A DNA stretch of 17,820 bases, taken from the NCBI GenBank assembly GCA_027346035.1, contig DAIESZ010000139.1, positions 1 to 17,820 on the forward strand, written 5' to 3'. Shown here piece after piece: positions 661 through 17,820 of the stretch. Positions within the stretch are counted from its first letter, which is position 1, and each line of letters begins with the position of its first letter. The notes beneath the pieces were generated by a model. The model was given only the letters and a program-made list of their open reading frames with translations, was not told where the DNA came from and did no database searches. A program made the position numbers and the translations under genes. This DNA comes from Propionibacteriaceae bacterium (lineage in GTDB: Bacteria; Actinomycetota; Actinomycetes; Propionibacteriales; Propionibacteriaceae).

Positions 661-666
661 CCCGTC

Positions 667-698
667 GTCGTGGCGGGGCGGTACCGCCCCGCCACGAC
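667..698 (+). promoter_or_regulatory. Intercistronic 32-bp perfect palindrome (hairpin)
   Basis: Bases 667-698 form a perfect palindrome. The arms 667-680 and 685-698 pair over 14 bp around a GTAC centre. It sits 7 bases after the stop of the binding-protein gene and ends 12 bases before the AAGGAG ribosome site of the permease gene. No T-run follows, so it is not a classical intrinsic terminator. Hairpins in this position in sugar ABC operons are known to stabilise the upstream binding-protein mRNA or cause partial termination, giving more binding protein than permease. That role here is inferred. Confidence 0.75.
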
Positions 699-722
699 CT
701 CCTACCCGCAAAGGAGCGTGAC

Positions 723-2533: not shown

Positions 2534-2570
2534 GTCCCACCCCGGCATCAGGATCCATCGAAAACCGACA

Positions 2571-2577
2571 AGAGGAG
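2571..2577 (+). promoter_or_regulatory. Ribosome binding site of the ThuA gene
   Basis: AGAGGAG lies six bases before ATG 2584 and fixes that start. The 50-base gap from the permease stop shows no hairpin or promoter of note, so the gene is probably read from the transporter operon. Confidence 0.75.
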
Positions 2578-2583
2578 TAGAAC

Positions 2584-3378
2584 ATGACACCCACCGCCGA
2601 CCGACCGCTCCGCGTCGTGGTCTGGGGAGAGAACCGGCACGAGCAGATCGAGCCGCACGTCGCCGACATCTACCCCGACGGCATGCACAACGCGATCAAG
2701 GCCGGTATCGAGGAGAACCTCGGCGACCGCGTCGTCGTCACGACAGCCCTGCTGGATGACCCGGAGCACGGTCTCACCGACGAGCGCCTCGCCGCAACGG
2801 ATGTGCTCACGTGGTGGGGTCACGCCGCGCATGCGGAGGTCTCGGACGACGTCGTCGAACGCGTCCACCGCCACGTCCTCGAGGGCATGGGGCTGGTGGT
2901 GCTGCACTCGGGGCACTGGTCGAAGATCTTCACCAAACTCATGGGCACCACGTGCACGCTGCGCTGGCGGAGCGAACACGACCGCGAACTGGTGTGGACG
3001 GTCGATCCGACGCATCCGATCGCCCAGGGCGTCCCCCACCCGATCGAGATCCCGCAGCAGGAGATGTACGGCGAGCAGTTCGACGTGCCCAGACCCGACG
3101 AGGTCATCTTCATCAGTTCGTTCACGGGCGGCGAGGTGTTCCGTAGTGGCCTCACCTATCGACGCGGCAACGGGAAGATCTTCTACTTCAGCCCCGGCGA
3201 CCAGGACTTCCCGGTGTACCACCACAAGGACGTGCGCCGCGTGATCGCGAACGGTGTCCAGTGGGTGGCGTCCGAGCGTCCGAAGCGCGAGATCCCGGTG
3301 TTGCTGCGCTACGACACCGGCGACTTCTTCCACGGGCACGGCTACCAGGGCGCCCTGCACAACAAGGACGAGGGTTGA
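2584..3378 (+). CDS. ThuA-domain protein (trehalose-utilization family)
   Basis: A 264-residue cytosolic protein of the ThuA family, which has a class-I glutamine-amidotransferase-like fold. Visible traits are the first strand LRVVVWGENRHE (9-20), the TWWGHAAH segment (76-83), VVLHSGHWSKIF (105-116), the TCTLRWRSEHDREL segment, and GKIFYFSPGDQDFPVYH near the C-terminus. ThuA proteins take part in catabolism of disaccharides and related glycosides in rhizobia, often beside Gfo/Idh-type dehydrogenases; the exact reaction is unsettled. The stop overlaps the start of the next gene (TGATG), so the two products are probably made together, matching the ThuA/ThuB-like pairing. Substrate here is unknown. 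Confidence 0.9.
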   Translation: MTPTADRPLRVVVWGENRHEQIEPHVADIYPDGMHNAIKAGIEENLGDRVVVTTALLDDPEHGLTDERLAATDVLTWWGHAAHAEVSDDVVERVHRHVLEGMGLVVLHSGHWSKIFTKLMGTTCTLRWRSEHDRELVWTVDPTHPIAQGVPHPIEIPQQEMYGEQFDVPRPDEVIFISSFTGGEVFRSGLTYRRGNGKIFYFSPGDQDFPVYHHKDVRRVIANGVQWVASERPKREIPVLLRYDTGDFFHGHGYQGALHNKDEG

Positions 3379-4514
3379 TGGCCGACTTCGCGATGGTTCC
3401 CGATGACGGACCCCTGCGGGTCGTACTCGTCGGAGCCGGCAACATGGGACGCGCCTGGATTCGGATGATCGCCGGCACCCCGGGTGTGCGTCTGGTGGGG
3501 CTGGTCGACCTGGCTCTCGAGCTGGCCCACGGCGCGGCAGCAGAGAACGGCCTGGACATCGTCGTCGGCGATTCGCTCGCGTCCGTGGTGGCCGCCTCCG
3601 GGGCCCAGGCCGTGATCGACGTCACGGTGCCGTCCGCGCATCATGCCGTGAACACCGAGGCGCTGCTCCTGGGTCTGCCGGTGCTCTGCGAGAAGCCCAT
3701 CGCCCCTTCGGTGGCAGAGACCCTCTCGCTGATCGCCGCCGAGGAGGTGAGCGGGCAACTGCTCATGACCAGCCAGTCCCGCAGGTACTACCCGCAGCTC
3801 GCACGGCTCAAGGACGCGGTCAGCCGCCTGGGTGGCGTGGGTGTCGTCACGACGGAGTTCTTCAAGGCGCCACACTTCGGCGGGTTCCGCGACGAGATGG
3901 AGCATCCGTTGCTGATCGACATGGCGATCCACGCCTTCGACGCGGCGCGGTACCTGCTGGACGCCGACCCCGTGACGGTCGACTGCCGCAGATTCAACCC
4001 GGAGTGGAGTTGGTACCGCGGTGACGCGGCCGCGGCGGCGATCTTCGAATTCGCGGGCGGCACCCGCTACACCTACACCGGCAGCTGGTGCTCACCCGGG
4101 CTCGAGACCTCGTGGAACGGCGCCTGGCGGGTGAGCTGTGCGGGTGGCAGCGCCACGTGGGACGGTGTCGGGGAACCCGTCGTCGGCCGGGGGGACGACC
4201 CCGACGGCACGCAGCCCTCCGCCGTCCCCGGTTCTGACACGCGCCGGGAGATCGCCGGCGCGCTGGACGAGTTCGTCTCCGCACTACGCACCGGCGTCAC
4301 CCCGCCGGGAGACGTGCACGCCAACGTGCACAGCCTCGCCATGGTGGAGGGCGCCGTGCTCTCCGCTGCCACGGGGCGCACCGTCGAACTCTCCGCGGTG
4401 CTCGAGAGCGCCTACCAGGTCGCACTGCACCGCGAGGAGCGCGACGAGGTGCGCGCAGTGTTGCGAGGCTGGGGCTCCGCCTCGGCCGGACTGGGAACCG
4501 GCGCCGCCGGATGA
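3378..4514 (+). CDS. Gfo/Idh/MocA-family oxidoreductase (first copy)
   Basis: A 378-residue NAD(P)-dependent sugar or cyclitol dehydrogenase. The Rossmann motif GAGNMG is at 19-24. The family Lys motif CEKPIA contains EKP at 105-107, and DMAIHAFDAARYLL (181-194) supplies the His of the usual catalytic patch. The rest is the alpha/beta C-terminal domain expected for the family. The start overlaps the ThuA stop; a second in-frame ATG five codons in is less likely because of that coupling. Family members oxidise a sugar hydroxyl, often at C3, or isomerise keto-sugars. Paired with ThuA it resembles ThuB. The exact substrate is not readable; the operon suggests a xyloside or glucoside. Confidence 0.9.
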   Translation: MADFAMVPDDGPLRVVLVGAGNMGRAWIRMIAGTPGVRLVGLVDLALELAHGAAAENGLDIVVGDSLASVVAASGAQAVIDVTVPSAHHAVNTEALLLGLPVLCEKPIAPSVAETLSLIAAEEVSGQLLMTSQSRRYYPQLARLKDAVSRLGGVGVVTTEFFKAPHFGGFRDEMEHPLLIDMAIHAFDAARYLLDADPVTVDCRRFNPEWSWYRGDAAAAAIFEFAGGTRYTYTGSWCSPGLETSWNGAWRVSCAGGSATWDGVGEPVVGRGDDPDGTQPSAVPGSDTRREIAGALDEFVSALRTGVTPPGDVHANVHSLAMVEGAVLSAATGRTVELSAVLESAYQVALHREERDEVRAVLRGWGSASAGLGTGAAG

Positions 4515-4537
4515 CTCCGGCGTCCGGAACCAGTCAA

Positions 4538-4576
4538 CGCCCTGCGGCCCGGCGCGGGCTGCCGGGCCGCAGGGCG
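4538..4576 (+). promoter_or_regulatory. Intercistronic hairpin, 15-bp perfect stem
   Basis: Arms 4538-4552 and 4562-4576 are perfectly complementary around a 9-base loop, in the 97-base gap between the oxidoreductase and the alpha-xylosidase. No T-run follows. As with the palindrome at 667-698, it is likely an mRNA-processing or attenuation element that sets the ratio of neighbouring gene products; that role is inferred. Confidence 0.7.
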
Positions 4577-4611
4577 ACCACCACGACACGCATGCAGAGA
4601 GGTTCAGTCTG

Positions 4612-6903
4612 ATGAGGTTCACCGACGGGTTCTGGGGTCTGCGACCCGGTGTGCGGGCGCTCTACGCGCGCGAGGCCCACGACATCGTGGCCGACGAACG
4701 AACACTGACCGTGATCGCACCGAGCAAGGTCGTGCGGCACCGCGGCGACACGCTCAACAACGCGACACTGACCGTGCGGCTCGACTCCCCGATGCCGGGC
4801 GTGATCGGCGTTTACGTCGAGCACTTCGCGGGCGCTCGCCGGGCCCCCGGCTTCGAATTCCTCCGACGTGAGGTCGACGCGGTCCGGGTGGACGCCGGCA
4901 CGGACGCCGCCACTCTCACCAGCGGTGAGCTCACCGCGACCGTGCACCGGGGCGAACCGTGGCGGGTCGAGTTCTCCGCGAGGGGACGTCTGCTCACCTC
5001 AAGCGGACACGATTCGCTGGCACGAATGTCAGTCGACCCGGGCGGGCTCGTCGACGGCCTTGTATGGGTCGCCGACGAGGGCATCCCCGTGCGTTCGACC
5101 GCATACACCCTCGCCCAGCTGGACCTCGCCGTCGGCGAGCTCGTCTACGGGCTCGGCGAGCGCTTCGGCCCGGTGGTGAAGAACGGCCAGAGCGTCGACG
5201 TCTGGAACGCCGACGGCGGCACGTCCAGTGAGCAGGCCTACAAGAATGTGCCCTTCTACCTCACGAACCGCGGCTACGGCGTGCTGGTCGACCACACCGG
5301 ACCGGTGTCGTTCGAGGTCGGCTCGGAGGCGGTCGAACGCGTGCAGTTCTCGGTTCCGGGCGAGCGGCTGAGCTTCTACGTGATGGACGGTCCCACACCC
5401 AAGGACGTGCTGGAACGCTACACGGCGCTCACCGGCCGACCGGCCGCGGTGCCCGCCTGGTCCTACGGCCTCTGGCTCTCCACGAGTTTCACCACCGACT
5501 ACGACGAAGCGACGGTGACGCGCTTCGTCGACGCCATGGCGGAGCGGGACCTGCCCCTCTCGGTGTTCCACTTCGATTGCTTCTGGATGCGTGAGTTCAG
5601 CTGGTGCGACTTCGAATGGGACCCGCGCACGTTCCCCGACCCGCCGGGCATGCTGTCGCGGCTGCACGACAAGGGCCTGCACGTCTGCGTGTGGATCAAC
5701 CCGTACATCGGGCAACGCTCTCCGCTGTTCGAGCAAGCGGCATCGGCCGGGTACCTCGTCAAGCGGCCGAACGGCGACCCGTGGCAGTGGGACCTCTGGC
5801 AGGCGGGAATGGGCCTCGTCGACTTCACGAACCCGGACGCCACGGCCTGGTACCAGGACAAGCTGCGGGGCCTTGTGGAGATGGGCGTCGACGCGTTCAA
5901 GACCGACTTCGGCGAGCGCGTGCCGCTGGACGTGGTGTTCGCGGACGGAACCGATCCCGGGAATATGCACAACCTGTACACACATCTCTACAACAGGGCC
6001 GTGCACGACGTGCTCGTGGAGATCCGGGGCGAGGGCGAGGCCGTGCTGTTCGCCCGCTCCGCCACGACGGGCGGCCAGCGGATGCCCGTGCACTGGGGCG
6101 GAGACAGCACGTCATCGTTCCCGTCGATGGCCGAGACGCTGCGCGGGGGCTTGTCGCTCGCGTTCAGCGCGTTCGGCTTCTGGAGCCATGACATCGGGGG
6201 TTTCGAGGGCACCCCCGATCCCGACGTCTTCAAGCGGTGGGTGGCCTTCGGCCTGCTGTCCAGCCACTCCCGTTTCCACGGGAGCCACTCCTACCGCGTG
6301 CCGTGGGTGTTCGACACGGACTCCCGGACCGGGGAGGTGAACGAATCCCCCACGAGCGCGGTGGCGGTGACCCGCAGGTTCGCGAAGCTCAAGAACCGGC
6401 TCATGCCCTACCTCTACGCGGTGGGTGCCGAGGCGTCCGACCGGGGTATCCCGGTGCTGCGGCCGATGCTGCTCGAGTTCCCCGACGACCCGGCCGTGGC
6501 GCATCTCGACCGCCAGTACATGCTCGGGCCCGACCTGCTCGTCGCACCCGTGTTCTCGGCCGCGGGCGAGGTGAGCTTCTACCTCCCCGCGGGCACGTGG
6601 ACGAGCCTGCTCACCGGGGAGCGGGTGCCGGGCGGCGGCTGGCGCACCGAGACGCACGGGCTCGACTCGCTGCCCCTCTACGTGCGCGAGGGCGCGGTGC
6701 TGCCGATCGGTGAGCGCGACGACCGGCCCGACTACGACTACCTCAGCGGGCTCACGCTCCGGGTGTATCCGGGAGCGGCCGGAGCGCCGGTGTATCTGGT
6801 CACGACCGCGGGTGAGCGCGTCGAGATCGACCTGGTACCGGACGGCCGGGGCGGTTTCGTCGCCTCGGCGCACGGCACGTCCCTCGCGGTCGAGATCGCC
6901 TGA
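4612..6903 (+). CDS. yicI: Alpha-xylosidase, glycoside hydrolase family 31
   Basis: A 763-residue GH31 enzyme close in length to E. coli YicI (772). It begins MRFTDGFWGLRPGV, typical of alpha-xylosidases. An N-terminal beta-sandwich is followed by the (beta/alpha)8 barrel. KTDFGERVP carries the presumed nucleophile Asp432, and WGGDSTSSF carries the presumed acid/base Asp498. The 66-residue gap equals that in YicI (416/482). SHDIGGFEGTP and the C-terminal beta domains follow. There is no signal peptide, so it acts in the cytosol on imported alpha-xylosides such as isoprimeverose. AGAGAGG at 4596-4602 supports the start; the in-frame extension upstream overlaps the oxidoreductase gene. This enzyme gives the best clue to the operon's substrate. 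Alpha-glucosidase is the main alternative activity in GH31. Confidence 0.92.
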   Translation: MRFTDGFWGLRPGVRALYAREAHDIVADERTLTVIAPSKVVRHRGDTLNNATLTVRLDSPMPGVIGVYVEHFAGARRAPGFEFLRREVDAVRVDAGTDAATLTSGELTATVHRGEPWRVEFSARGRLLTSSGHDSLARMSVDPGGLVDGLVWVADEGIPVRSTAYTLAQLDLAVGELVYGLGERFGPVVKNGQSVDVWNADGGTSSEQAYKNVPFYLTNRGYGVLVDHTGPVSFEVGSEAVERVQFSVPGERLSFYVMDGPTPKDVLERYTALTGRPAAVPAWSYGLWLSTSFTTDYDEATVTRFVDAMAERDLPLSVFHFDCFWMREFSWCDFEWDPRTFPDPPGMLSRLHDKGLHVCVWINPYIGQRSPLFEQAASAGYLVKRPNGDPWQWDLWQAGMGLVDFTNPDATAWYQDKLRGLVEMGVDAFKTDFGERVPLDVVFADGTDPGNMHNLYTHLYNRAVHDVLVEIRGEGEAVLFARSATTGGQRMPVHWGGDSTSSFPSMAETLRGGLSLAFSAFGFWSHDIGGFEGTPDPDVFKRWVAFGLLSSHSRFHGSHSYRVPWVFDTDSRTGEVNESPTSAVAVTRRFAKLKNRLMPYLYAVGAEASDRGIPVLRPMLLEFPDDPAVAHLDRQYMLGPDLLVAPVFSAAGEVSFYLPAGTWTSLLTGERVPGGGWRTETHGLDSLPLYVREGAVLPIGERDDRPDYDYLSGLTLRVYPGAAGAPVYLVTTAGERVEIDLVPDGRGGFVASAHGTSLAVEIA

Positions 6904-6916
6904 CCGGTGCCATCGA

Positions 6917-6943
6917 CGCCCCGGATCCGCCGCGCCCGGGGCG
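6917..6943 (+). promoter_or_regulatory. Intercistronic GC hairpin, 8-bp stem
   Basis: CGCCCCGG at 6917-6924 pairs perfectly with 6936-6943 around an 11-base loop, 14 bases after the alpha-xylosidase stop. No T-run follows. It could be a weak terminator or mRNA stabiliser in the 126-base gap before the second oxidoreductase gene. Confidence 0.45.
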
Positions 6944-7029
6944 AACGGTTGAGCAGTCGGCCCGGCAAGGCCATGCACCATCCCCGACCGGGGAACGACG
7001 ACAGTGACAGCCGAGAGAGAAGGTCGACG

Positions 7030-8226
7030 ATGACGGATTCAGGCCAGGCTGCGGCGCGCACCTTGCGCGTCGGCATGGTGGGCCACGGGTTCATGGGGGC
7101 GGCACATTCGCACGCGTGGCGCAACGCTCACCGGTTCTTCGAACTCCCGGCGACGCCACAGCTGACGGCGGTCGCCGGGCGCGACGCCCAGCGCGTGGCG
7201 GAGGCCGCCGAGCGGCAGGGATGGCTCAGCACCGAGACCGATTGGCGGCGGCTCGTGGAGCGCGACGACATCGATCTCATCGACATCTGCACGCCCGGTG
7301 ATACCCATCGCGAGATTGCGCTCGCGGCGCTGGAGGCGGGCAAGCATGTGCTCTGCGAGAAGCCGCTCGCCAACACGGTGGCCGAGGCGGAGGAGATGGC
7401 TGACGCCGCCCGCCGCGCGTCCGAGCGCGGTCAGATCGCGATGTGCGGATTCACCTACCGGCGGGTTCCGGCGGTGTCACTTGCCCGGCGCTTCGTCGAC
7501 GAGGGGCGACTGGGTGAGATCCGCCACGTGCGGGCCCAGTACTTGCAGGACTGGCTGAGTGACGCGAACGCCCCGCTCACCTGGCGGCTGGACAAGTCGA
7601 GGGCGGGCAGCGGTTCGCTCGGCGACATCGGCGCCCACATCATCGACATGGCGCAGTGGGTCGCCGGCAGCAGGATCGAGGGACTCTCGGCCGTGCTGCG
7701 GACGTTCGTGACCGAGCGACCCGTCGGAGGCGAGTTCGTCGGGCTCGGTGGCGCGGGTTCCGCCGACGGGCCCAAGGGACCGGTGAGCGTCGACGACGCG
7801 GCGGCGTTCACCGCGCGCTTCGCGGGTGGTGCACTCGGGGTGTTCGAGGCGACGCGGTTCGCGCTGGGACGCAAGAACAGCCTCCGCCTCGAGGTCAACG
7901 GTTCGTTGGGGTCGGTGGCCTTCGACTTCGAGGACATGAACTCGCTGCAGTACTACGACGGCGCCGACGATGCCGAGGCGCAGGGATTCCGCCGGATCAT
8001 CGTCACCGAGGCGGTGCATCCCTACACCGGCAACTGGTGGCCGTCGGGTCACGGACTCGGCTACGAACACAGCTTCACCCACCAGGTCGCCGACCTCGTG
8101 CGCGCCATCGGCGCCGGCGCGCAGCCGCACCCGTCATTCGACGACGCGCTGCAGGTGCAGCGCGTACTCGCCGCCGTCGAGGCGTCCGCCGCCGACCGGG
8201 CGGCGTGGCACGAGGTGCAAGGGTGA
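7030..8226 (+). CDS. Gfo/Idh/MocA-family oxidoreductase (second copy)
   Basis: A 398-residue NAD(P)-dependent dehydrogenase. GHGFMG (18-23) is the dinucleotide motif, CEKPLAN holds EKP at 110-112, and GDIGAHIID (198-206) holds the family His203. GAGAGAAGG at 7015-7023 sits six bases before the ATG and decides this start over an in-frame ATG at 6907. It differs strongly from the first copy in the operon (GHGFMG versus GAGNMG, GDIGAHIID versus DMAIHAFD), so it is not a recent duplicate and likely acts on another step, for example oxidation then re-reduction of a sugar. It is the last gene on this strand before an unrelated kinase-like gene and probably ends the operon. Confidence 0.9.
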   Translation: MTDSGQAAARTLRVGMVGHGFMGAAHSHAWRNAHRFFELPATPQLTAVAGRDAQRVAEAAERQGWLSTETDWRRLVERDDIDLIDICTPGDTHREIALAALEAGKHVLCEKPLANTVAEAEEMADAARRASERGQIAMCGFTYRRVPAVSLARRFVDEGRLGEIRHVRAQYLQDWLSDANAPLTWRLDKSRAGSGSLGDIGAHIIDMAQWVAGSRIEGLSAVLRTFVTERPVGGEFVGLGGAGSADGPKGPVSVDDAAAFTARFAGGALGVFEATRFALGRKNSLRLEVNGSLGSVAFDFEDMNSLQYYDGADDAEAQGFRRIIVTEAVHPYTGNWWPSGHGLGYEHSFTHQVADLVRAIGAGAQPHPSFDDALQVQRVLAAVEASAADRAAWHEVQG

Positions 8227-9062: not shown

Positions 9063-9449
9063 TCACCCCTCCAGCATCGCTGCGATGGTCTCCTCTGTCT
9101 GGAACGGCCGCACCTCGACCTTTCCGCGGCACGCCTTCGACCCCTCCGCGGCCAGCGCGAGAGCCTCGTCGAGGCCGGAGGCCTCGATCACCCAGAAACC
9201 TCCGATGTACTCCTTGGACTCCAGGTAGGGCCCGTCGGTGACCACCGGGGCATCACCCCGCCCATCGACGACGGAGGCGGTCGTCGCCTGGTCGAGACCG
9301 TCGGCGAAGACGAAGTGCCCTTCACGCTGCAGTTTCTCGTTGAACACCCCGGTGTCGGCGAACGCCTGCAGCATCGCCTCCTTGGACGGGTGGTCACCGT
9401 ACTTGGTTCGCTCCGCCGGCCCGTAGACCGACAACAGATACCTGGGCAT
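9063..9449 (-). CDS. YCII/DGPF-domain protein
   Basis: A 128-residue protein of the YCII-related, DGPF-type family. It begins MPRYLLSVYGP and contains VVTDGPYLESKEYIGGFWVIEA, the family signature with DGPY in place of DGPF. The fold is a small ferredoxin-like barrel; family members are often encoded near ECF sigma factors but their reaction is unknown. AAGGAG at 9457-9462 with a 7-base gap fixes the ATG; a longer in-frame start is overruled by it. It follows its paralogue (9464-9838) after 14 bases, so the two form an operon. No sigma factor lies on either side within the window. Confidence 0.88.
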   Translation of the reverse strand: MPRYLLSVYGPAERTKYGDHPSKEAMLQAFADTGVFNEKLQREGHFVFADGLDQATTASVVDGRGDAPVVTDGPYLESKEYIGGFWVIEASGLDEALALAAEGSKACRGKVEVRPFQTEETIAAMLEG

Positions 9450-9463
9450 ATCACCACTCCTTG

Positions 9464-9838
9464 TCACTTCGCGATGTCGTCCTCGGCCCCCACGAACTGG
9501 GGGAACCGGTGCACCTCCTGCGGCCAGCCGAGCGCGACGGCGAGCCGACCCGCCCAATACCGCGCCGCGGCGTCATCGGGCACGTCGACGACGGCGAAGC
9601 CGCCGAGGTGCTCCTTGGTCTCGACGTAGGGCCCGTCGGTGAACACCGGCTCCCCGTCCCGTGCCGTGACACTGCACACCACCGTGGCGGCGTCGAGGCC
9701 CCCGTCGGTGAAGACGAACACGCCGGCGTCCCGCATCTCCGCGATCACGCTCCGGCCGGCGACGCCCTTGTCGCGGATCTCCTCGGGGGTGAGGTCGGGC
9801 ACCCACTCGTCGTTGAAGGCGATCAGATACTGAGCCAC
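9464..9838 (-). CDS. YCII/DGPF-domain protein (paralogue)
   Basis: A 124-residue paralogue of the preceding protein. It starts with GTG (MAQYLIAFNDEW) preceded by AGAGGAG, whose AGGAG core is at 9846-9850, which excludes the upstream in-frame ATG at 9949. It carries VFTDGPYVETKEHLGGFAVVDV, aligning with the same signature in its partner, and probably pairs with it as a heteromer or performs a related task. It is the first gene of the two-gene operon. Function in this family is not established; a role linked to stress sigma factors is known by association only. Confidence 0.87.
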   Translation of the reverse strand: MAQYLIAFNDEWVPDLTPEEIRDKGVAGRSVIAEMRDAGVFVFTDGGLDAATVVCSVTARDGEPVFTDGPYVETKEHLGGFAVVDVPDDAAARYWAGRLAVALGWPQEVHRFPQFVGAEDDIAK

Positions 9839-10156
9839 TGCGGTCTCCTCTCGGGTCGAACGAGGGCCGGCACGCGACACTCGGCACGGACGGCCCACCT
9901 GCCGCCGTACACCCATTCGACGAACGGCCACGCTCCGATCCGACAACATCCGCGGCCCAACTTCAAGAGGGGCGTGACCCGGCGCCGGGTCCGCCCGAGT
10001 AGTCCGCCTCGACCCGGATCCCCTCCACGGGGCCCACGGACTGCGAGCCGAGACGGATGGGGCCCAACGAGGGACAGGGTCAGATTCCGCATGCCCTCGC
10101 CGGTGGGACGCCCCGTCCGCTCACCGCCCGGCCCCAGGGATGGGGTTGAGGTCAGG
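9839..10156. other. 318-base intergenic region with palindromes
   Basis: No reading frame here looks like a real gene. It should hold the promoter of the DGPF pair and the 3' end of the nitronate monooxygenase-like transcript, both on the minus strand. Visible structure includes a 16-base perfect palindrome GACCCGGCGCCGGGTC (9976-9991), a GGACG/CGTCC hairpin (10106-10118), a CCCCA/TGGGG hairpin (10132-10145) close to the nitronate monooxygenase stop, and two GGGGCCCA copies 30 bases apart (10029 and 10059). Confidence 0.6.
10132..10145 (-). terminator. Small hairpin after the nitronate monooxygenase gene
   Basis: CCCCA (10132-10136) and TGGGG (10141-10145) pair over 5 bp with a 4-base loop, 11 bases beyond the minus-strand stop. 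No U-tract follows. It is a weak candidate terminator. Confidence 0.25.
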
Positions 10157-11608
10157 TCAGGCAGCCGGCAGCGACCCGGTGAGCCAGCGGACCGCCTCGG
10201 CCGCCGTCCACCCGTCCGGATGCGTCTCGAGCAGTTGCTGGGGACCCGACAGGTCCTGGCCGAGGGTGATCACGGCGTCCTCGACGTGACCGTCCCTGCG
10301 CACCTGACCCAGGCCGATGTCGGCGAGCAGTCCGTTGCACAGGCAGATACGGCCGGCGGTGTCGGCGACATCGCCGCCCTTGCGGACATACATGTGTGCG
10401 GGTTCGGCCGCGCACCGGTAGGTGAGCGTGCCGTCGGCGCGCTCGGCCGGCGTGCGCAGGAACCCGAGGTTGCAGATGCGTTCCCGCGCGGCATAGATCG
10501 CGGGGTCGGACAGGGTGCCCTCGACATCGGCGATCTTGAACGGGAAGCCCGTGGGCGAGGCGAGGGGGTCGTTGCGCACGGTGAGGGAGCCGTCGGCGAG
10601 CCGGCGCAGCAGTTGTTGTCTGAGGTCGGGACGCAGCCCCGACTCTTCGGCGAACGCGAACAGGGTGCCGACCTGGACGCCCTCGGCACCGGCGGCGACG
10701 GCGTCCGCCACCCGCTCGGGAGTGGCGTAGGCCCCCGCGAGCCAGAACGGCAGCCCGATGGTGGTCATGGCGGAGAGATTCGCCTCGTCGCGCACCCCGT
10801 AGACGGGCTGACCGTCGCCGTCGATGGTCATCTTGCCGCGCGGAGGCGCGCTGTGGCCCCCGGCACGGGGCCCTTCCACCACGAAGCCGTCGGGGCGCGT
10901 CGCCTCGCTGCGGTTAAGGAACCCGGCGAGCAGCGGCAACGAGACGATGGCGAGGAACTTCGGCCGCTTCAGCACCGGCAGGTCGTCGCTGAGCACCTTC
11001 ACCGGATCGAGCGAGGCGCCGTAGGGCCGGGTGGCATTGGCCACCGCGACCGTGACGTCGCCGGTGCGACCGGCGGCGAAGTCGTTCAGCAGCTTGGGAA
11101 TCTCGAGGGGAACACCGGCCCCCATCAGGACGTAGTCGACCCCGGCGAGCATGGCGCCCAGAATCGCCGACAGGGTCGCCGTCTGGATCTTCTCCAGCAT
11201 GTTCACCCCGATGATGCCCTCGTGGCCCTCCTTGGCCAGCCAGACCTCGGCGAAGTTGCCCACCAGCGCCAACTCGATCGCCGCCGGGCTCGGATGCAGG
11301 TCGATGGCAGGGTGCGGGCGGTACGGATGGCCGCCGCGGCCGTCGGGACGGAAGAAGCGTTCGAGCACGCGCGAGGCGATGCCCCGGGATGGGAAGTGTC
11401 GCAGGGCCCGCCGGATGTGGCCGCCCTCGTCGCCGTCCTGGAGCCGCCTCGCAACGACGGCGTCGAGGGCCGTGCCGGACACGACGCCCAACTGGCCGGC
11501 CCTCGCGACCTCACGGGCGAGCCGCCAGCCCGACACCGCCACTCCCATGCCACCTTGAATGATGACGGGGCGAGTCGCCTCGGCCCGGTGCAACTCAGTC
11601 CCGTCCAT
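10157..11608 (-). CDS. Nitronate monooxygenase-like flavoprotein, long form
   Basis: A 483-residue TIM-barrel protein of the nitronate monooxygenase (2-nitropropane dioxygenase) superfamily. Visible traits are PVIIQGGMGVAVSG (14-27), the EGPRAGGHSAPPRG segment with His252 where the family has its catalytic His, and GAEGVQVGTLFAF (307-319), the FMN-phosphate region. It is longer than the usual 320-380 residues; the extra C-terminal part carries Cys379, Cys399, Cys422 and Cys424 (ICLCNGL), a possible metal site. The family oxidises alkyl nitronates, or in other branches acts as an FMN-dependent dehydrogenase or enoyl reductase; the substrate here is unknown. The ATG has no ribosome site but lies six bases from TACCGT, suggesting a leaderless message. 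Confidence 0.85.
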   Translation of the reverse strand: MDGTELHRAEATRPVIIQGGMGVAVSGWRLAREVARAGQLGVVSGTALDAVVARRLQDGDEGGHIRRALRHFPSRGIASRVLERFFRPDGRGGHPYRPHPAIDLHPSPAAIELALVGNFAEVWLAKEGHEGIIGVNMLEKIQTATLSAILGAMLAGVDYVLMGAGVPLEIPKLLNDFAAGRTGDVTVAVANATRPYGASLDPVKVLSDDLPVLKRPKFLAIVSLPLLAGFLNRSEATRPDGFVVEGPRAGGHSAPPRGKMTIDGDGQPVYGVRDEANLSAMTTIGLPFWLAGAYATPERVADAVAAGAEGVQVGTLFAFAEESGLRPDLRQQLLRRLADGSLTVRNDPLASPTGFPFKIADVEGTLSDPAIYAARERICNLGFLRTPAERADGTLTYRCAAEPAHMYVRKGGDVADTAGRICLCNGLLADIGLGQVRRDGHVEDAVITLGQDLSGPQQLLETHPDGWTAAEAVRWLTGSLPAA

Positions 11609-11737
11609 GAACCTACGGTACCGTCGCCACCCCGGGGGTTCAGCGGCGCCATCGCGCAAGCAGGGTTCCCCTCCCGGCGCGAATGTCGTGATCTGGTCGG
11701 CCACCGGCTCCATACCCCTCCCGGCTAGGGTTGGCCC
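11609..11737. promoter_or_regulatory. Divergent promoter region with two leaderless promoters
   Basis: This 129-base gap separates the nitronate monooxygenase-like gene (-) from the ATP-grasp fusion gene (+). On the minus strand TACCGT (11615-11620) lies exactly six bases before the ATG, inside the palindrome ACGGTACCGT (11615-11624). On the plus strand TAGGGT (11726-11731) lies exactly six bases before GTG 11738. Neither start has a ribosome site. The spacing places transcription start at the start codon. The -35 regions are weak. Confidence 0.65.
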
Positions 11738-14326
11738 GTGCCAGCCCTCCTCCCCCAGCAGGCCGGCCCGGTGGAGGAGTACCGCCACCGGCTGCTGGCC
11801 ACCGGCGGTGGCCCCGACGAGCTGGTGCCCCCGACCGGCGCCTCGGCCGCCGAGGCGATCCGTGACGCCGTGACCGTGATGGGACGCCGCGGACTGCTCG
11901 CAGCCCGGGCCGAGACCGCGCGCCTCGCCCAGGACGACGGGATCACCTACGGGCTGGCCGACCTGCCCGCCGACGACGAGGGGCACGTGCCCAGCCGTCC
12001 CTGGCACATCGATCCGCTGCCGGTCGTGATCGACGACGCCGAGTGGCGGACCCTCGAACGGGGACTACAACAACGGGCCGTGCTGCTCGACGCGATCCTC
12101 GGCGACGTCTACGGGCAGCGGAGACTGATGGGGCAGGGGCTGCTGCCCCCGGAGATCATCGTGGGGCATCCGGGATTCCTGCCGCAGCTCGACGGCGTCC
12201 GGCTGAACGGACCCAGCCAACTGGTGCTCACCGCGACCGACCTCGGGAGGGACGCCGACGGAACCTGGCGCGTGTTCGGCGACCGAACGGCGGCACCGTC
12301 GGGGGCCGGCTACACGATGGCCACCCGGCGGATCGTCACCACCGTGATGGCCGGGCTGCACCGGCATGCACGGCTGGCCCGGCTGCGGGGCTTCTTCCAC
12401 CTCATGACCCGCGCGCTGCAGGATGTCGCCCCCGCCGGCGCCGACGCCCCGCGCGGCGTGCTGCTCGGGCCCGGGTCGACGAGCGAGACGAACTACGAGC
12501 ACGGCTTCCTGGCCTCCCTGCTCGGCTTCACCCTGGTGGAGGCCGACGACCTCATCGCCCGCGAGGGTCACATCCACATCAGTGCTGGGGAACGCTCGAG
12601 TCGGGTCGACGTGATCCTGCGCCGCACCGACGCCGAGTTCTGCGACCCCCTGGAACTGCGCGCCGACAGCCGTCTGGGGGTGGCCGGCCTGGTCGAGGCG
12701 GCCCGCCTCGGCAACACCGCGGTGGTGAACCCGCTCGGGGCGGGGGTTCTGGAGAACGCCGCCCTGCAGGTGTTCCTGCCCGGACTGTGCCGCGCCCTGC
12801 TGGGTGAGGACCTGCTGCTGCCCGCCACCGAGACCTTCTGGTGCGGGGACGCCGCCCACCTCCGGCACGCCCTGGACACCATGGATCACCTGGTGTTCAA
12901 GCCCATCGGGCACCACGCCGGCGTCCACGCACTGCCCGGCTGGCGGCTCAGCCGATCCGAGCGCGACGACCTGCGTCACCGGATCACCCACCGGCCCTGG
13001 GAATGGACGGCCCAGGATCCGCTGCCGATGTCGACCGCACCGGTGGTCACCGCCAACGGGCTGGAACCGCGCCGGTTCGTGCTGCGCACCTTCGGGGTCA
13101 GCCAGGGCGGCCGGGTGCACATCATGCCCGGGGGCCTGGGACGCGTCGCGCCCGACCAGGAGTCCGTGCTGGTCAGCAACGCGGCCGGGGCCCTCGCCAA
13201 GGATGTCTGGGTGCTCGCCGAACAGCCCGCGGACGCCGCGCCGACCACCCTCGGCATCACCGGCCCCGGCCGGGCCACCAGTCCGGGCCACGTGCTGGCC
13301 GCGCGTGTCGCCGACAACCTGTTCTGGCTCGGCCGCTACGCCGAACGCGTCGAGGCCACGGCGCGCCTCCTGCGAGTCACCGACGACCTGGTCGAGGACA
13401 ACGCCCTGCGCAGCGCCACCCTCGGCGGCAGCGTCATGCAGACCATGGTTCGGGCGGCGCTCGACGTCACCGGGGTCCGCGTCGAGCGCACGGCCGGGGC
13501 CGACCCGTCACCCCTGGACGCCGTACGGGCGATGGTGCTGCGCCGACGCACCCGGGGCACGGTGCGTCACGGCGCCGCCCGCCTGCTCGCCGCCGCCGCC
13601 GAGGTACGCGACAACATGCCCGACGACCTGTGGCGGGTGCTCAGCAATCTCGACCGGACCCTGGCCGCCATCCCCCCGGACGAGGCACGGCTGCAGCCCC
13701 AGCTCGACAGCGTCATCGAGTCGACCCTCGCCCTGTCCGGCATCCTCGCCGAGTCACTGGTGCGCGACGAGTCGTGGGGATTCATCGACGCCGGCGTCCG
13801 CCTCGAACGCGCCGTCGCGACCCTGTCACTGATCGGCGCCACCCTCACCACGGTCCGTCCACCCGCGCTCGACGGTCAGGTCGCCGAGGCCGTGCTCAGC
13901 GTCGGTGAGAGCAGCATCACGCACCGCCGTCGCACCGTGCAGGGCGTCGGCCCCGTGCTCCCCACCCAGTCGGCGATCCTCCTGCTGCTGCTCGACGTCG
14001 CCAACCCGCGGTCGGTCGCGTTCCAGCTGACCCGGCTGGCCGCGGCCCTACGCATCGCCGGCGACCCGGCGCTGGCCGCGCGACTCGACCCGGCACTGTC
14101 CCGCCTGCGGGCGCTGGACGCCGCCCACCTGTGCGAAGGAGACCGCGACCCGCTGACCGGCGAGATCCAGCAGCTCACCGGACTGCTCGAGGGACTGTCC
14201 GACGCGCTCACCCGCCGGCACTTCCGCCGGCACGCGCCCACCCGGACGCTGCCGACCGACTGGGCACCCGCGGTCGCCGGCATCGCCGGAGTGGGCCTGC
14301 CCGTCGCCGGGGGCGGGGGCCGGTGA
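11738..14326 (+). CDS. Circularly permuted ATP-grasp / alpha-E fusion protein
   Basis: An 862-residue cytosolic protein with two domains. Residues about 90-495 are a circularly permuted ATP-grasp (DUF404/DUF407 type): WHIDPLPVVIDDAEW (89-103), GHPGFLPQLDG (143-153), GPGSTSETNYEHGF (244-257), SRVDVILRRTD (288-298), NPLGAGVLEN (331-340) and VFKPIGHHAG (386-395). Residues about 518-825 are an alpha-E helical domain (DUF403), opening with ARVADNLFWLGRYAERVEATARLL (522-545). ATP-grasp enzymes of this branch are predicted to form amide or peptide bonds, with alpha-E as a partner; no product is known to me. The start is GTG, six bases after TAGGGT, with no ribosome site. A transglutaminase-fold gene follows after one base. 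In many genomes the two domains are separate genes; a fusion like this is a recognised variant. Confidence 0.9.
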   Translation: MPALLPQQAGPVEEYRHRLLATGGGPDELVPPTGASAAEAIRDAVTVMGRRGLLAARAETARLAQDDGITYGLADLPADDEGHVPSRPWHIDPLPVVIDDAEWRTLERGLQQRAVLLDAILGDVYGQRRLMGQGLLPPEIIVGHPGFLPQLDGVRLNGPSQLVLTATDLGRDADGTWRVFGDRTAAPSGAGYTMATRRIVTTVMAGLHRHARLARLRGFFHLMTRALQDVAPAGADAPRGVLLGPGSTSETNYEHGFLASLLGFTLVEADDLIAREGHIHISAGERSSRVDVILRRTDAEFCDPLELRADSRLGVAGLVEAARLGNTAVVNPLGAGVLENAALQVFLPGLCRALLGEDLLLPATETFWCGDAAHLRHALDTMDHLVFKPIGHHAGVHALPGWRLSRSERDDLRHRITHRPWEWTAQDPLPMSTAPVVTANGLEPRRFVLRTFGVSQGGRVHIMPGGLGRVAPDQESVLVSNAAGALAKDVWVLAEQPADAAPTTLGITGPGRATSPGHVLAARVADNLFWLGRYAERVEATARLLRVTDDLVEDNALRSATLGGSVMQTMVRAALDVTGVRVERTAGADPSPLDAVRAMVLRRRTRGTVRHGAARLLAAAAEVRDNMPDDLWRVLSNLDRTLAAIPPDEARLQPQLDSVIESTLALSGILAESLVRDESWGFIDAGVRLERAVATLSLIGATLTTVRPPALDGQVAEAVLSVGESSITHRRRTVQGVGPVLPTQSAILLLLLDVANPRSVAFQLTRLAAALRIAGDPALAARLDPALSRLRALDAAHLCEGDRDPLTGEIQQLTGLLEGLSDALTRRHFRRHAPTRTLPTDWAPAVAGIAGVGLPVAGGGGR

Positions 14327-14327
14327 G

Positions 14328-15245
14328 ATGGCGCAGAGCGACGACGACTTCGGTCCCCGGCGCTACCGGGTGCAACACCGCACCACCTACACCTACGACG
14401 CCGACGTGGAGGCCTGCTACGAGCGCGGCCTGCTGGCGCCGCGGCACACGGCCACCCAGACCGTGCTCGCACAGCACCTGGTGATCGACCCGGAACCGGC
14501 GCTGGTCGTCGAGCACGTCGACTTCTTCGGCAACACCAGCCACTACGTCGAGATCCGCACGCCGCACCGGCGCCTCGAGGTGACCAAGACCTTCGACGTC
14601 GACGTGGCCCGCCCGCGTCCCGATCCGGACGCGATCAACCGCTGGACCGTCGCCCAGGCGGCGTCGATGCTGGCCGACCCGCGGGCGCACGGCCTCGACC
14701 CCTTGTGGACCGGCATCTTCCGGCTCCCGTCGGCCCTGGTGAGCGACGCCGACGACGTCGCCGACTACGCCCGCAGCCACATCGATCCGGCGATGCCGCT
14801 CGGGGATGCGCTGCAGGCGATGACCATGGGCATCCACCGCGACTTCACCTTCCGGCGCGGCGTCACCTCCGTGCGCTCGACGCTGTCGGAGGTGCTGGCC
14901 CTGCGGGTCGGCGTATGCCAGGACTTCAGCCACCTCGCCATCGGCTGCCTGCGCTCGCTGGGGCTGCCCACCCGCTACGTGAGCGGCTACATCGAGACGA
15001 TTCCGCCACCCGGCAGGCCGAAACTCGCGGGCTCGGACGCGTCGCACGCCTGGGCCTCGGTACTGCTGCCCGATGGCACGTGGGTCGCCATCGACCCGAC
15101 CAATCGGCAGTTCGTCGACTCCCGGTACGTCGTGACAGCCTTCGGCCGGGACTTCGGCGACGTGTCGCCCCTCAAGGGGATCGTGCACACCGACAGCGAG
15201 CGGTCGACCCTCGACGTGGGCGTCGACGTGATCCGGCTCGCCTGA
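14328..15245 (+). CDS. Transglutaminase-fold protein with the ATP-grasp operon
   Basis: A 305-residue cytosolic protein with an N-terminal beta domain (YRVQHRTTYTYD, 13-24) of the bacterial transglutaminase-like type and a papain-fold core. The catalytic triad is visible as Cys197 in GVCQDFSH, His240 in ASHAWASV and Asp256 in AIDPTN. These proteins are predicted peptidases or acyl-transferases that trim or transfer amides, and they regularly accompany ATP-grasp/alpha-E genes. The ATG lies one base after the fusion gene's stop, so the two are surely co-translated. The gene ends inside the symmetric terminator hairpin at 15237-15272. The substrate is unknown. Confidence 0.9.
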   Translation: MAQSDDDFGPRRYRVQHRTTYTYDADVEACYERGLLAPRHTATQTVLAQHLVIDPEPALVVEHVDFFGNTSHYVEIRTPHRRLEVTKTFDVDVARPRPDPDAINRWTVAQAASMLADPRAHGLDPLWTGIFRLPSALVSDADDVADYARSHIDPAMPLGDALQAMTMGIHRDFTFRRGVTSVRSTLSEVLALRVGVCQDFSHLAIGCLRSLGLPTRYVSGYIETIPPPGRPKLAGSDASHAWASVLLPDGTWVAIDPTNRQFVDSRYVVTAFGRDFGDVSPLKGIVHTDSERSTLDVGVDVIRLA

Positions 15246-15272
15246 GGAGGCCGTCGGCTCGCCTCAGGCGAG
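15237..15272. terminator. Symmetric bidirectional terminator spanning both stop codons
   Basis: CTCGCCTGAGG (15237-15247) and CCTCAGGCGAG (15262-15272) form a perfect 11-bp inverted repeat around a 14-base spacer. Each arm contains the TGA stop of one of two convergent genes: 15243-15245 on the plus strand and 15264-15266 on the minus strand. Both proteins therefore end with Leu-Ala encoded by the arm. It should fold in both transcripts and can serve both genes. No long T-tract follows on either side. Confidence 0.7.
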
Positions 15273-16106
15273 GGTGACCGGCCGGGTGCCGTCGTCGTCG
15301 GGCGGAGGCGCCGCCGGGTCGAGGACCGCATCGGCCCGGATCGAGAGAAGGTGCGCCCGGCCGCCCAGGACGGTGAGGAACGCGGCGTCGGCGGCGTCCC
15401 TGCCGGTGGCGATGCGCACCATCGCCGGACGCGGGGCCATGCCGGTCGCGTCGACCACCAGCCAACGCCCCTCGTGCGCGACCTCGGTGACCGCGTGGAA
15501 GTCCATCGGGTGCAGTCCGGGGGCGTACACCGACACCAGCCGGGCGGGAACGTTCTGCGCCCGGAGGAAGGTGATCACCAACTGCGCCGAGTCGCGGCAC
15601 ACGCCGCGGCGCGACAGGTAGGCCTCCAACGCGCCATCGGTCACATCGCTGGAACCGCTGGCGTAGGTGATGTTCGTGCGGACCCACTCGACCACCGACT
15701 GCACCAGTTCCCAGCCGGTGAGGTGCCCGAAGTGGGTGGTCGACACCGCGGCGAGCCGGTCGGAGTCGCAGTAGCGGCTGGGACGGGTGAATTCGATCAC
15801 GTCGGCCTCGGTGACCTCGAACGGGAGACCCGCAGTGGGCACCGTCGCCTCGTACCGTAACTCGAAGCGTCCGACCGGGCACGCCGGGATGCGGTGCAGC
15901 CGAGTGGGATGGCTCGTGCCCCTGACCTCGTGGAACGCCACGTCGCGGCCGTCGACCGTGGCCCGCAGGCTCTCCCGCGCGTCGGAGTGGTCGGCCGACA
16001 CCGCGACGCTGAAGATGAGGTCGGCGACCGCGGTCACCTCGAGTTCGACCCGGGCGCCGACTCGGCGTTCGCCGACCGCCCGGGGAGCGGACTCAGGGTG
16101 TGTCAC
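15264..16106 (-). CDS. Transglutaminase-fold protein, second type
   Basis: A 280-residue protein of the transglutaminase-like superfamily, without signal peptide. The triad is Cys170 in RRGVCRDSAQLV, His204 in MDFHAVTEV and Asp219 in VVDATGMAPR. An N-terminal beta-rich half (about 15-110) precedes the core, and an acidic/proline tail ends the protein. It is only distantly similar to the other transglutaminase at 14328-15245 (GVCRD versus GVCQD), so it is a different branch. I chose GTG 16106 because TACGGT (16113-16118 on this strand) lies exactly six bases upstream, the same layout as at other leaderless starts nearby. An in-frame ATG at 16169 would add 21 residues with no family similarity. 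It probably belongs functionally to the ATP-grasp cluster. Confidence 0.85.
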   Translation of the reverse strand: MTHPESAPRAVGERRVGARVELEVTAVADLIFSVAVSADHSDARESLRATVDGRDVAFHEVRGTSHPTRLHRIPACPVGRFELRYEATVPTAGLPFEVTEADVIEFTRPSRYCDSDRLAAVSTTHFGHLTGWELVQSVVEWVRTNITYASGSSDVTDGALEAYLSRRGVCRDSAQLVITFLRAQNVPARLVSVYAPGLHPMDFHAVTEVAHEGRWLVVDATGMAPRPAMVRIATGRDAADAAFLTVLGGRAHLLSIRADAVLDPAAPPPDDDGTRPVTLA

Positions 16107-16186
16107 GCGCGTACCGTAGCAGCGGCGGCGTGGTGCCGGTGTCGTGCCGGCCGCGACGACGCCCACCATCTCCGAGGAGGACCGCC
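16107..16186. promoter_or_regulatory. Divergent promoter region
   Basis: These 80 bases separate the minus-strand transglutaminase gene from the plus-strand deacetylase gene. TACGGT for the minus strand (16113-16118) overlaps TACCGT on the plus strand (16112-16117), so both directions may use overlapping -10 elements. The plus-strand gene has its own ribosome site, GAGGAGG at 16174-16180. The -35 regions are not clear. Confidence 0.45.
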
Positions 16187-16870
16187 ATGTCCGAGCTGCC
16201 CGACTGGCCGTGCACCGTGGTGATCGTCGCGCACCCCGACGACGAGTCGTTCGGGCTCGGCGCGGTGTTGTCGACGCTGGCGGCCCGCGGATCCCGGGTG
16301 AGCGTGCTCTGCTTCACCCAGGGTGAGGCCTCGACCCTGCACGGTGTCGCCGGCGACCTGGCGGTCATTCGCCGCGACGAACTGCGCCGGGCCGCCGACG
16401 AGCTGGGACTCGACGGCGTCCGGTTGCTGTCCTATCCCGACGGCTCCCTGGCGGACCAGCCGCTGGACGCCCTGATCGCGGACGCGCGCGGCTACGCGGC
16501 CGAGGTCGCCCCCGCCGGACTGGTGACCTTCGACCCGTCGGGCATCACCGGCCACCCGGACCACGCGGCGGCCACCCGGATCGCCGTTGAGCTGGGCCGT
16601 GGGCTGGGGCTCGGGGTTCTCGGCTGGACGCTGCCCCGCGCGGTCGCCGACCAACTCCACACCGAACTGGGTATCGGGTTCATCGGACACGACCCCCACG
16701 AGATCGACCTGGTCGTCGACGTCGACCGGACCGCCCAGCGGCGGGCGATCGCCTGCCACGCGAGCCAGGCCGTGCCCGGCAGCCCACTGTGGCGCCGGCT
16801 CGAGCTGCTGGGCGATCGGGAGCACCTGCGCTGTCTGCACCGGCCGGCGTCCACGCTGCCGACCGGTTGA
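16187..16870 (+). CDS. PIG-L family deacetylase
   Basis: A 227-residue protein of the PIG-L/LmbE zinc-dependent amidohydrolase family. The zinc-binding motif AHPDDE is at 15-20 and the second metal His lies in GHPDH (122-126). Family members remove acetyl groups from N-acetylglucosamine-linked compounds, for example in mycothiol or antibiotic synthesis. GAGGAGG at 16174-16180 with a six-base gap fixes the start. It sits between two ATP-grasp loci, which suggests, without proof, that it processes an amide in the same pathway; it may instead be an independent housekeeping gene. It is shorter than MshB (about 300), so I do not call it a mycothiol enzyme. A hairpin covers the stop codon. Confidence 0.88.
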   Translation: MSELPDWPCTVVIVAHPDDESFGLGAVLSTLAARGSRVSVLCFTQGEASTLHGVAGDLAVIRRDELRRAADELGLDGVRLLSYPDGSLADQPLDALIADARGYAAEVAPAGLVTFDPSGITGHPDHAAATRIAVELGRGLGLGVLGWTLPRAVADQLHTELGIGFIGHDPHEIDLVVDVDRTAQRRAIACHASQAVPGSPLWRRLELLGDREHLRCLHRPASTLPTG

Positions 16871-16876
16871 CCGGTC
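16861..16876 (+). terminator. Hairpin over the deacetylase stop codon
   Basis: GACCGG (16861-16866) and CCGGTC (16871-16876) pair perfectly around a TTGA loop that contains the TGA stop (16868-16870). No T-run follows. It is a modest candidate terminator. Confidence 0.35.
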
Positions 16877-16924
16877 CCGCCGGCCCGGCCGGGGCGTCGC
16901 CATCGCGCCCGGAAGGCGCAACAC

Positions 16925-16957
16925 GGCCGTAACCGGAACGACCATGGCCGTAACCGG
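16925..16957 (+). repeat. 12-bp direct repeat, 21-bp period, upstream of ATP-grasp gene
   Basis: GGCCGTAACCGG occurs at 16925-16936 and again at 16946-16957. The start-to-start distance is 21 bp, two helical turns. The second copy covers the -35 zone of the promoter whose -10 is TAGTGT (16965-16970). This layout suits a regulator binding the same face of DNA. Confidence 0.6.
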
Positions 16958-16964
16958 TGCCGCC

Positions 16965-16970
16965 TAGTGT
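16965..16970 (+). promoter_or_regulatory. Leaderless promoter -10 element
   Basis: TAGTGT ends six bases before ATG 16977, with no ribosome site between. It matches the TAnnnT/6-base/start layout seen at 11738, 11608 (-) and 16106 (-). Confidence 0.6.
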
Positions 16971-16976
16971 GCAGTC

Positions 16977-17820
16977 ATGGTCGGCATGTTCGAGAACTAC
17001 CCCCACGCCAGAGCGTGGGACGAAATGCTCGCGCCAGATGGCACGCCCCGGCAGGGTCACACGGCCATCATGCGCACCCTGGCGACGCTGTCGATCGCCG
17101 AACTCGTGTCTCGCGCCGAGACGCTGGCGGGGTCCTACGTCGACCAGGGCGTCACCTTCGACCATGCCGGCGAGGAGAAGGCGTTCCCCCTCGACGTGAT
17201 CCCCCGCATCATCCGCGGCGAGGAGTGGGAGACCATCGACGCGGGCGTTCAGCAGCGCGTGCAGGCCCTCGAAGCGCTGCTCCACGACCTGTACGCGACC
17301 TCCGACGCGCCCCGGGCCGTCCGAGCGGGCATCATCCCCTGGAAACTCATCGCGTCGAGTGAGCACTTCCACCGGGAGGTCTCGGGCATCGTGCCGCACA
17401 ACGGCGCCCGGATCCAGGTGGCCGGGGTCGACCTGGTCCGCGACGAGGCCGGTACCTTCCGCGTGCTCGAGGACAACGTGCGCGTGCCCTCGGGCGTGAG
17501 CTACGTCATGTCCAACCGCCGGGCGATGACCAACGTGATCCCCGAGGCCTTCGTCAACGAGCGCATCCGGCCGGTCGACAACTATCCGGGCATGCTGCTG
17601 TCCGCGTTGCGGGCCGCCGCACCCGCCGGGGTCAGCGACCCGACGGTGGTCGTGCTCACCCCGGGCGTCTACAACTCCGCCTACTACGAACACTCGCTGC
17701 TGGCCCGCACGATGGGCGTCGAACTGGTCGAGGGCCGCGACCTGTTCGTCAGCGGCGGCACGGTGAAGATGCGCACCACCCAGGGCGAGCGCCGGGTCGA
17801 CGTGATCTACCGTCGGGTCG
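16977..17820 (+). CDS. Circularly permuted ATP-grasp protein, stand-alone type (5' part)
   Basis: The first 281 residues of a circularly permuted ATP-grasp protein; the gene continues past the window. It opens FENYPHARAWDEMLAPDG (5-22), as stand-alone members do. PLDVIPRIIRGEEW (71-84), VAGVDLVRDEAG (148-159), VLEDNVRVPSGVSYVMSNR (163-181), LTPGVYNSAYYEH (227-239) and RRVDVIYRR (272-280) are core nucleotide- and metal-site segments. It differs from the ATP-grasp half of the fusion protein at 11738, so the window encodes two branches. Members of this branch are usually followed by a separate alpha-E gene and a transglutaminase gene, which may lie just outside. ATG 16977 is chosen because TAGTGT precedes it by six bases; the ATG three codons in is an alternative. 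Confidence 0.9.
   Translation, partial: MVGMFENYPHARAWDEMLAPDGTPRQGHTAIMRTLATLSIAELVSRAETLAGSYVDQGVTFDHAGEEKAFPLDVIPRIIRGEEWETIDAGVQQRVQALEALLHDLYATSDAPRAVRAGIIPWKLIASSEHFHREVSGIVPHNGARIQVAGVDLVRDEAGTFRVLEDNVRVPSGVSYVMSNRRAMTNVIPEAFVNERIRPVDNYPGMLLSALRAAAPAGVSDPTVVVLTPGVYNSAYYEHSLLARTMGVELVEGRDLFVSGGTVKMRTTQGERRVDVIYRRV

Follow-up and report, generated by a model that had tools for sequence, protein, structure and literature searches.

The question raised by this locus is whether two adjoining sets of ligase-like genes act as two ligases, as the unequal halves of one system or as unrelated neighbors. The locus occupies the right part of a Propionibacteriaceae contig (C190), which was analyzed over its whole length of 17,820 bp (the window) and belongs to a metagenome-assembled genome (MAG; G000) of 384 contigs and 77% completeness. 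Judged by its domains, the block is of the amidoligase/Alpha-E/transglutaminase (Anbu-operon-type) kind, known but poorly understood, and its side-by-side arrangement is unusual. Here, set A denotes an ATP-grasp/Alpha-E fusion gene with the transglutaminase-fold gene TG1, and set B an ATP-grasp gene with a separate Alpha-E gene and a transglutaminase gene. We lean, without strong conviction, towards a system for amide ligation, linked to nitrogen, with set A as the non-catalytic partner of set B. A sequence-only reading of this DNA had recognized five genes lying together (the fusion, two transglutaminase-fold genes, a PIG-L deacetylase and a second ATP-grasp gene) and, among them, two distinct ATP-grasp branches of this uncharacterized kind next to each other. 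A Pfam search bore out both points; the frames are open and devoid of internal stops, and the second transglutaminase gene proved to lie on the minus strand, a detail the reading had not given. Positions 9461-17820 are syntenic with the corresponding locus (L025) of a genus-mate, G025, at 90.9% nucleotide identity. The features are as follows.

11738..14326, plus strand: set A, gene 1; fusion of CP_ATPgrasp_2 (419 bits) and Alpha-E (175.5 bits), 862 amino acids (Pfam)
14328..15245, plus strand: set A, gene 2 (TG1); transglutaminase-fold protein with Bact_transglu_N and Transglut_core, 305 amino acids (Pfam)
15264..16169, minus strand: TGm; second transglutaminase-fold protein, with Transglut_core, no N domain and a weak DUF553 match (Pfam; relative of 3isr)
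16187..16870, plus strand: PIG-L de-N-acetylase; the open reading frame (ORF) opens at 16100, with an ATG at 16187 and GAGGAG upstream (Pfam)
16915..16957, plus strand: 43-bp block with a GlnR-type box, GCAAC-N6-GTAAC (16918-16933), and a further GTAAC at 16950; identical in the genus-mate
16977..17820, plus strand: set B, gene 1; CP_ATPgrasp_1/2, first 281 amino acids, ending with the contig (Pfam; 3n6x, E 5.9e-67; E-D-N intact in the alignment)

Judged by the marks of an active ATP-grasp ligase (E-x-N, a glycine-rich loop and NSSQGGG), the set-A fusion does not qualify. The E and N of E-x-N, matched by motif to the Mg ligands of GspS, are gone in 68 of 68 fusions (five split-gene loci excluded), and SGGKG and NSSQGGG, which are present in set B, are mostly missing. 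The 72 fusion loci behind this comparison had been fetched with a single peptide pattern adjoining the E-x-N site; therefore, fusions fetched without a sequence pattern were also inspected, and E-x-N was absent from these as well (15/15 in the family, 19/19 in the class). The ATP-grasp fold of the fusion is complete and the Alpha-E domain conserved. Because E-x-N and most of SGGKG and NSSQGGG are lost, the fused ATP-grasp is predicted to be a pseudoenzyme, unable to ligate by itself, and the two ligation steps proposed in the sequence-only reading fail for set A.

Set B presents the opposite picture. The E and N are found in 11 of 11 set-B proteins of relatives, and SGG-x-G together with NSSQGGG in all 10 that are not truncated; the window's fragment carries E-D-N and stops upstream of the last two motifs. 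With the motifs of an active ATP-grasp ligase, the set-B protein is predicted to be catalytic. A contig of the same MAG (C226, locus L004) holds the remainder of such an ATP-grasp gene followed by the off-window components, a separate Alpha-E gene and a third transglutaminase gene. Both are likewise found on contig C216 of G025, whose set-B ATP-grasp gene appears to be split, with its parts at the ends of C259 and C216. Thus, the two genes that the sequence-only reading had proposed to look for past position 17820 are present in C226 and in G025, not joined to the window. C226 was ruled out as the window's own continuation, being only 87.6% identical to the window's end over the 677-bp overlap (17144-17820); it is 93.3% identical to C216 of G025. 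We take C226 to be a related copy from a related population binned together with this one. The occurrence of two 87.6%-identical versions of one gene also indicates that the bin probably mixes related populations. Seen in relatives and lacking a physical join to the window, a set-B continuation with Alpha-E and a third transglutaminase is well supported.

Of the 72 loci, 68 have a TG1 homolog on the same strand no more than 340 bp downstream of the fusion. Among the remaining four, L102, L108 and L113 stop at a contig end, and L115 has a partial fusion and no TG1 in the next 10 kb. Many loci end at contig ends, so that neighbor counts over the 72 loci are lower bounds. A C-H-D pattern was found in all 68 TG1 segments with a crude regular expression. 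TGm, convergent and at most 1.4 kb after TG1, is present in 11/72 loci (L049 of the window's genus, Nocardioides, Tessaracoccus) and is an accessory neighbor of set A in some genera. Transglutaminase-fold relatives of TGm also lie about 6-8 kb from set A in L060, L077 and L057. On the other side of the fusion, less than 1 kb upstream and on the same strand, 31 of the 72 loci have a gene for a TG-DUF2126 protein, that is, a transglutaminase fused to a carboxylate-amine ligase, as exemplified by Rv2566 in the available excerpt of PMC2588565. DUF2126 was detected in 10 of 57 genomes of the family, every one of them among the 21 that carry set A, yet a search of the window's genome (77% complete) and of G025 (98% complete) did not find it.

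The distribution of the two sets ties A to B. The 57 genomes of the family survey comprise 20 with both sets, one with A only (G010, 71% complete), eight with B only and 28 with neither; two of the last group, G004 and G042, carry a third, longer type. In the class survey of 296 genomes, set A was found in 51, set B in 113 and both in 50, G237 alone having A without B (Fisher value 9e-24, kinship ignored). For this survey the best three or best five first-look candidates per genome were scored, with E-value cut-offs set after the tables had been seen: 1e-200 for A (plus a partial hit in G237 at 4.5e-136) and 1e-180 for B. Fourteen genomes with a weaker best hit to the set-B profile (1e-110 to 1e-143) were excluded from B; their hits are mostly long ORFs of 860-950 amino acids, with one fragment (G328). 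ORFs of this third type (about 860-950 amino acids, ATP-grasp at 1e-110 to 1e-143 against the set-B profile; for instance in G071, G111, G131 and G136) occur in genomes with and without set B.

Physical linkage of A and B is less frequent. The sets lie within 10 kb of each other in five of the 20 two-set family genomes (G000, G025, G016, G039 and G034), and among the 50 two-set genomes of the class only the window's has them within 10 kb on one contig, as read by eye from tables in which the contig ends of draft genomes may hide further cases. Set-B genes share a locus with the fusion in 6 of the 72 loci, in varied order: tandem (L049, L109), convergent (L084), divergent (L090, L115) or upstream (L096). 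Two of these loci, L096 from Marinomonas fungiae and L109 from a Desulfuromonadales MAG, combine A, B and DUF2126 outside the actinobacteria, which suggests that the two modules also travel together. According to the sequence-only reading, scattered and independent genes in relatives would have spoken against one system. Scattering is what was seen for PIG-L (see below) and mostly for A relative to B; however, A is rarely found without B and a nitrogen-type box of one kind can stand before A or B (see below), which leaves a functional connection between them standing. Since co-occurrence of A with B is mostly without adjacency, set A appears to behave like an accessory to set B for which adjacency is not required.

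The nitrogen connection comes from the promoters. The available excerpts of PMC10704036, PMC3087709 and PMC3662644 give gTnAC-n6-GaAAC and similar sequences as the GlnR box, and the box expected in the promoter of a regulon member is G-n-n-A-C, six bases and G-n-A-A-C. The sequence GCAACACGGCCGTAAC (16918-16933), which lies 43 bases upstream of the ATG of set B, fits this description, and the 43-bp block around it is identical in G025. Of 68 set-A loci, 10 have a strict GTNAC box in the 300 bp upstream of their first set-A gene (between -38 and -63); from the background rate, 16 hits in 1.26 Mb, 0.28 would be expected. The widened pattern, GYNAC, was adopted after the window's GCAAC had been seen. 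When spacers of 2 to 10 bases were compared, the six-base spacer was prominent: before set A with DUF2126 it gave 10 boxes in 27 promoters (other spacers, 0-2; 27 of the 31 loci have enough upstream sequence), before set B 8 in 26, window included (other spacers, 0-2; L134, the 27th, was dropped as its start block was not found), and before amtB, the positive control, 6 in 11 (other spacers, 0-3; the twelfth region, L152, is considered below). The amtB gene of G025 is preceded by a box. The set-B positives are eight genomes belonging to four genera, and the set-A positives include several close relatives; the cases are thus not independent events. Looser boxes, with two mismatches allowed, are not above chance in the window (26 found, 30 expected); the case therefore rests on place, conservation and relatives. 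We regard 16918-16933 as a candidate GlnR site, to which GlnR would bind.

From these elements a mechanism can be outlined. Set B would be the working amide-bond-forming module, with a CP ATP-grasp ligase, a separate Alpha-E partner and a transglutaminase-fold peptidase or transferase. The ligase would use ATP to form an acyl-phosphate, attack by an amine would then give the amide bond, and the transglutaminase-fold enzyme would cut or transfer the product. Set A, which retains the ATP-grasp fold and has lost the Mg/ATP residues, would probably act in substrate binding or partner docking rather than ligation, and would contribute a further transglutaminase-fold enzyme, TG1. Where present, TG-DUF2126, a GCS/GS-type amidoligase, would be set A's own alternative candidate ligase; DUF2126 was not found in the two genomes of the window's genus (see above), so there set A would rely on the ligase of set B. 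The system would answer nitrogen shortage, in the window through the GlnR-type box before set B. It seems conceivable, and we propose it only tentatively, that this is an actinobacterial two-module system in which the pseudo-ligase set A works only alongside an active set B, remote or neighboring, under the general nitrogen regulator, making or removing a peptide-like nitrogen store or protein tag at nitrogen shortage.

Several observations weigh against a nitrogen-linked partnership of this kind. In most genomes the two sets are not linked, B is often found without A (63 of 113) and G237 has A without B. As for regulation, set A without DUF2126 has the box in none of 41 loci, no box was found before the window's own set A, and 18 of the 26 set-B promoters have none; only two genomes (G052/L077 and G006/L120) were seen to have a box at each of the two sets. 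Inside genes of the window there are two more exact boxes (7465 and 15640), and none was found at the amtB copy of the window's genome in a search of the whole L152 region. As for catalysis, the correspondence with GspS residues relies on motif spacing and a non-significant hhalign match (E 0.31), and pseudo-ATP-grasps may still bind ATP. Furthermore, one fusion, L170 (G151:C1:708330-710807, about 836 amino acids), retains E-D-N, SGGKG and NSSQGGG; fusion as such thus does not equal inactivity, and L170 is, by its motifs, a natural active-type fusion. Finally, the available excerpt of PMC6376114 reports that specific mutual interaction of the Anbu-operon proteins of Yersinia bercovieri went undetected.

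Part of this evidence would also fit A and B being independent systems of one superfamily, their adjacency in the window fortuitous and their co-occurrence a product of genome size and lifestyle. The distance between A and B in most genomes, the frequency of B without A and the disregard of kinship in the co-occurrence statistic all lend themselves to this interpretation, which we hold to be possible if doubtful: of the 51 genomes with A, 50 also have B, the two sets are linked in varied orders and the same nitrogen-type box can precede either. Unlikely, in our judgment, is a role of the set-A pseudo-ATP-grasp/Alpha-E protein as an inhibitor or sensor that, under nitrogen plenty, would hold back the transglutaminases or the ligase of set B. 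The fold is retained while catalytic residues are lost, Alpha-E is conserved and A is nearly restricted to genomes with B, all of which is consistent with such a role; however, where A has a box, it is of the amtB type, suggesting co-induction and not opposite control.

The sequence-only reading had counted the deacetylase as a member of the system. Its PIG-L domain scores 103.1 bits against a curated cut-off of 28.2, far under the BshB/MshB equivalog cut-offs, so no substrate is assigned. An ortholog (at least 50% identity) is present in 5 of the 57 family genomes (G000, G025, G038, G044 and G054) and adjoins the block only in the first two, both of the window's genus; G038 and G054 have the ortholog and neither set, and in G044 it lies about 45 kb from set A. 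Membership was rejected, as the orthologs of G038, G044 and G054 share no other neighbor in the 12-kb stretches compared. Some Micropruina loci run counter to this verdict: at 1.7-2.9 kb downstream of TG1, three of the five (L057, L059 and L089, but neither L058 nor L112) contain a distant match to PIG-L, with 29-39% identity. On balance, PIG-L is probably a bystander. The two-step synthesis of the sequence-only reading, with both ATP-grasps ligating and the transglutaminases and PIG-L trimming the product, is very unlikely: both ATP-grasp domains are recognized, the fusion's fold is complete and TG1 has its C-H-D pattern, but the fusions have lost E and N in 68 of 68 cases along with most of the glycine loop and NSSQGGG, and PIG-L is not conserved with the block.

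Over the fusion, the closest named locus is that of "Actinomycetes bacterium isolate BP5.bin62" (91% identical), followed by loci from Nocardioides, Micropruina, Tessaracoccus and Propionibacteriaceae MAGs; these relatives place the organism among the actinobacteria, close to Propionibacteriaceae and Nocardioides. Elsewhere in the window, 9063-12007 holds two tandem YCII-domain genes and a nitronate monooxygenase-like gene (Pfam), which are encoded on the minus strand and diverge from set A. Positions 1-8226 form a sugar-use cluster with, by eye, ABC-transporter-like genes, a ThuA-like gene and a first Gfo/Idh dehydrogenase, together with a YicI-type alpha-xylosidase (NF007940, 1138 bits) and a last Gfo/Idh dehydrogenase whose nearest model is levoglucosan dehydrogenase, with a score below the cut-off.

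The system is a widespread one, set-B-type proteins being present in 113 of the 296 genomes surveyed in the window's class. It would be testable in actinobacteria through its predicted pseudoenzyme half, the rarity of that half without the other and the amtB-type box before one half or both in part of the relatives. Set B would be the gene set for a ligation assay, set A the partner to add and nitrogen shortage the condition under which to search for a product.

Among known systems, GspS of E. coli and the peptide-spermidine ligases YgiC/YjfC share the ATP-grasp fold by structure comparison and have an E-x-N like that of set B; they differ from the set-A fusion, which is without E-x-N, and no gene annotated as Alpha-E or transglutaminase was seen in the stretches inspected near gss, ygiC and yjfC. 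Anbu is typical of Anbu-operon-type systems and not universal among them. The Anbu operon consists of ATP-grasp, Alpha-E, transglutaminase and Anbu genes (Iyer et al. 2009; Valas and Bourne 2008, as cited in the available excerpts of PMC6376114 and PMC5666114). The window shares its gene kinds, with two CP-ATP-grasp genes, an Alpha-E domain (fused, in set A) and a neighboring transglutaminase-fold gene, and all three kinds are found in set B of relatives. It differs in the second, pseudo-ATP-grasp set alongside and in the lack of any match to PF00227 (Anbu, proteasome-type) in the window's 77%-complete genome, a search that matched 10 of 14 genomes as a control. The excerpt of PMC6376114 describes phosphate release from ATP by a Yersinia relative of the set-B ATP-grasp; on the role of such systems, it and the excerpt of PMC5666114 offer hypotheses only. 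The nitrogen link has parallels in two proteobacteria. As far as the excerpts of PMC5491218 and PMC8050072 go, the nitrogen-responsive Burkholderia cenocepacia cluster I35_5080-83 comprises DUF404/DUF407 (CP-ATP-grasp), DUF403 (Alpha-E) and two transglutaminase-like genes, and the PP_2685/PP_2688 cluster of Pseudomonas putida, in which PP_2688 is a type 2 CP ATP-grasp, is nitrogen-responsive too. Control of the B. cenocepacia genes is NtrC/sigma54-dependent, whereas a GlnR-type regulator is the candidate here; the excerpt on P. putida names no regulator, and inactivity of the ATP-grasp comes up in neither excerpt. The gene kinds are the same as in the window, and both clusters react to nitrogen supply.

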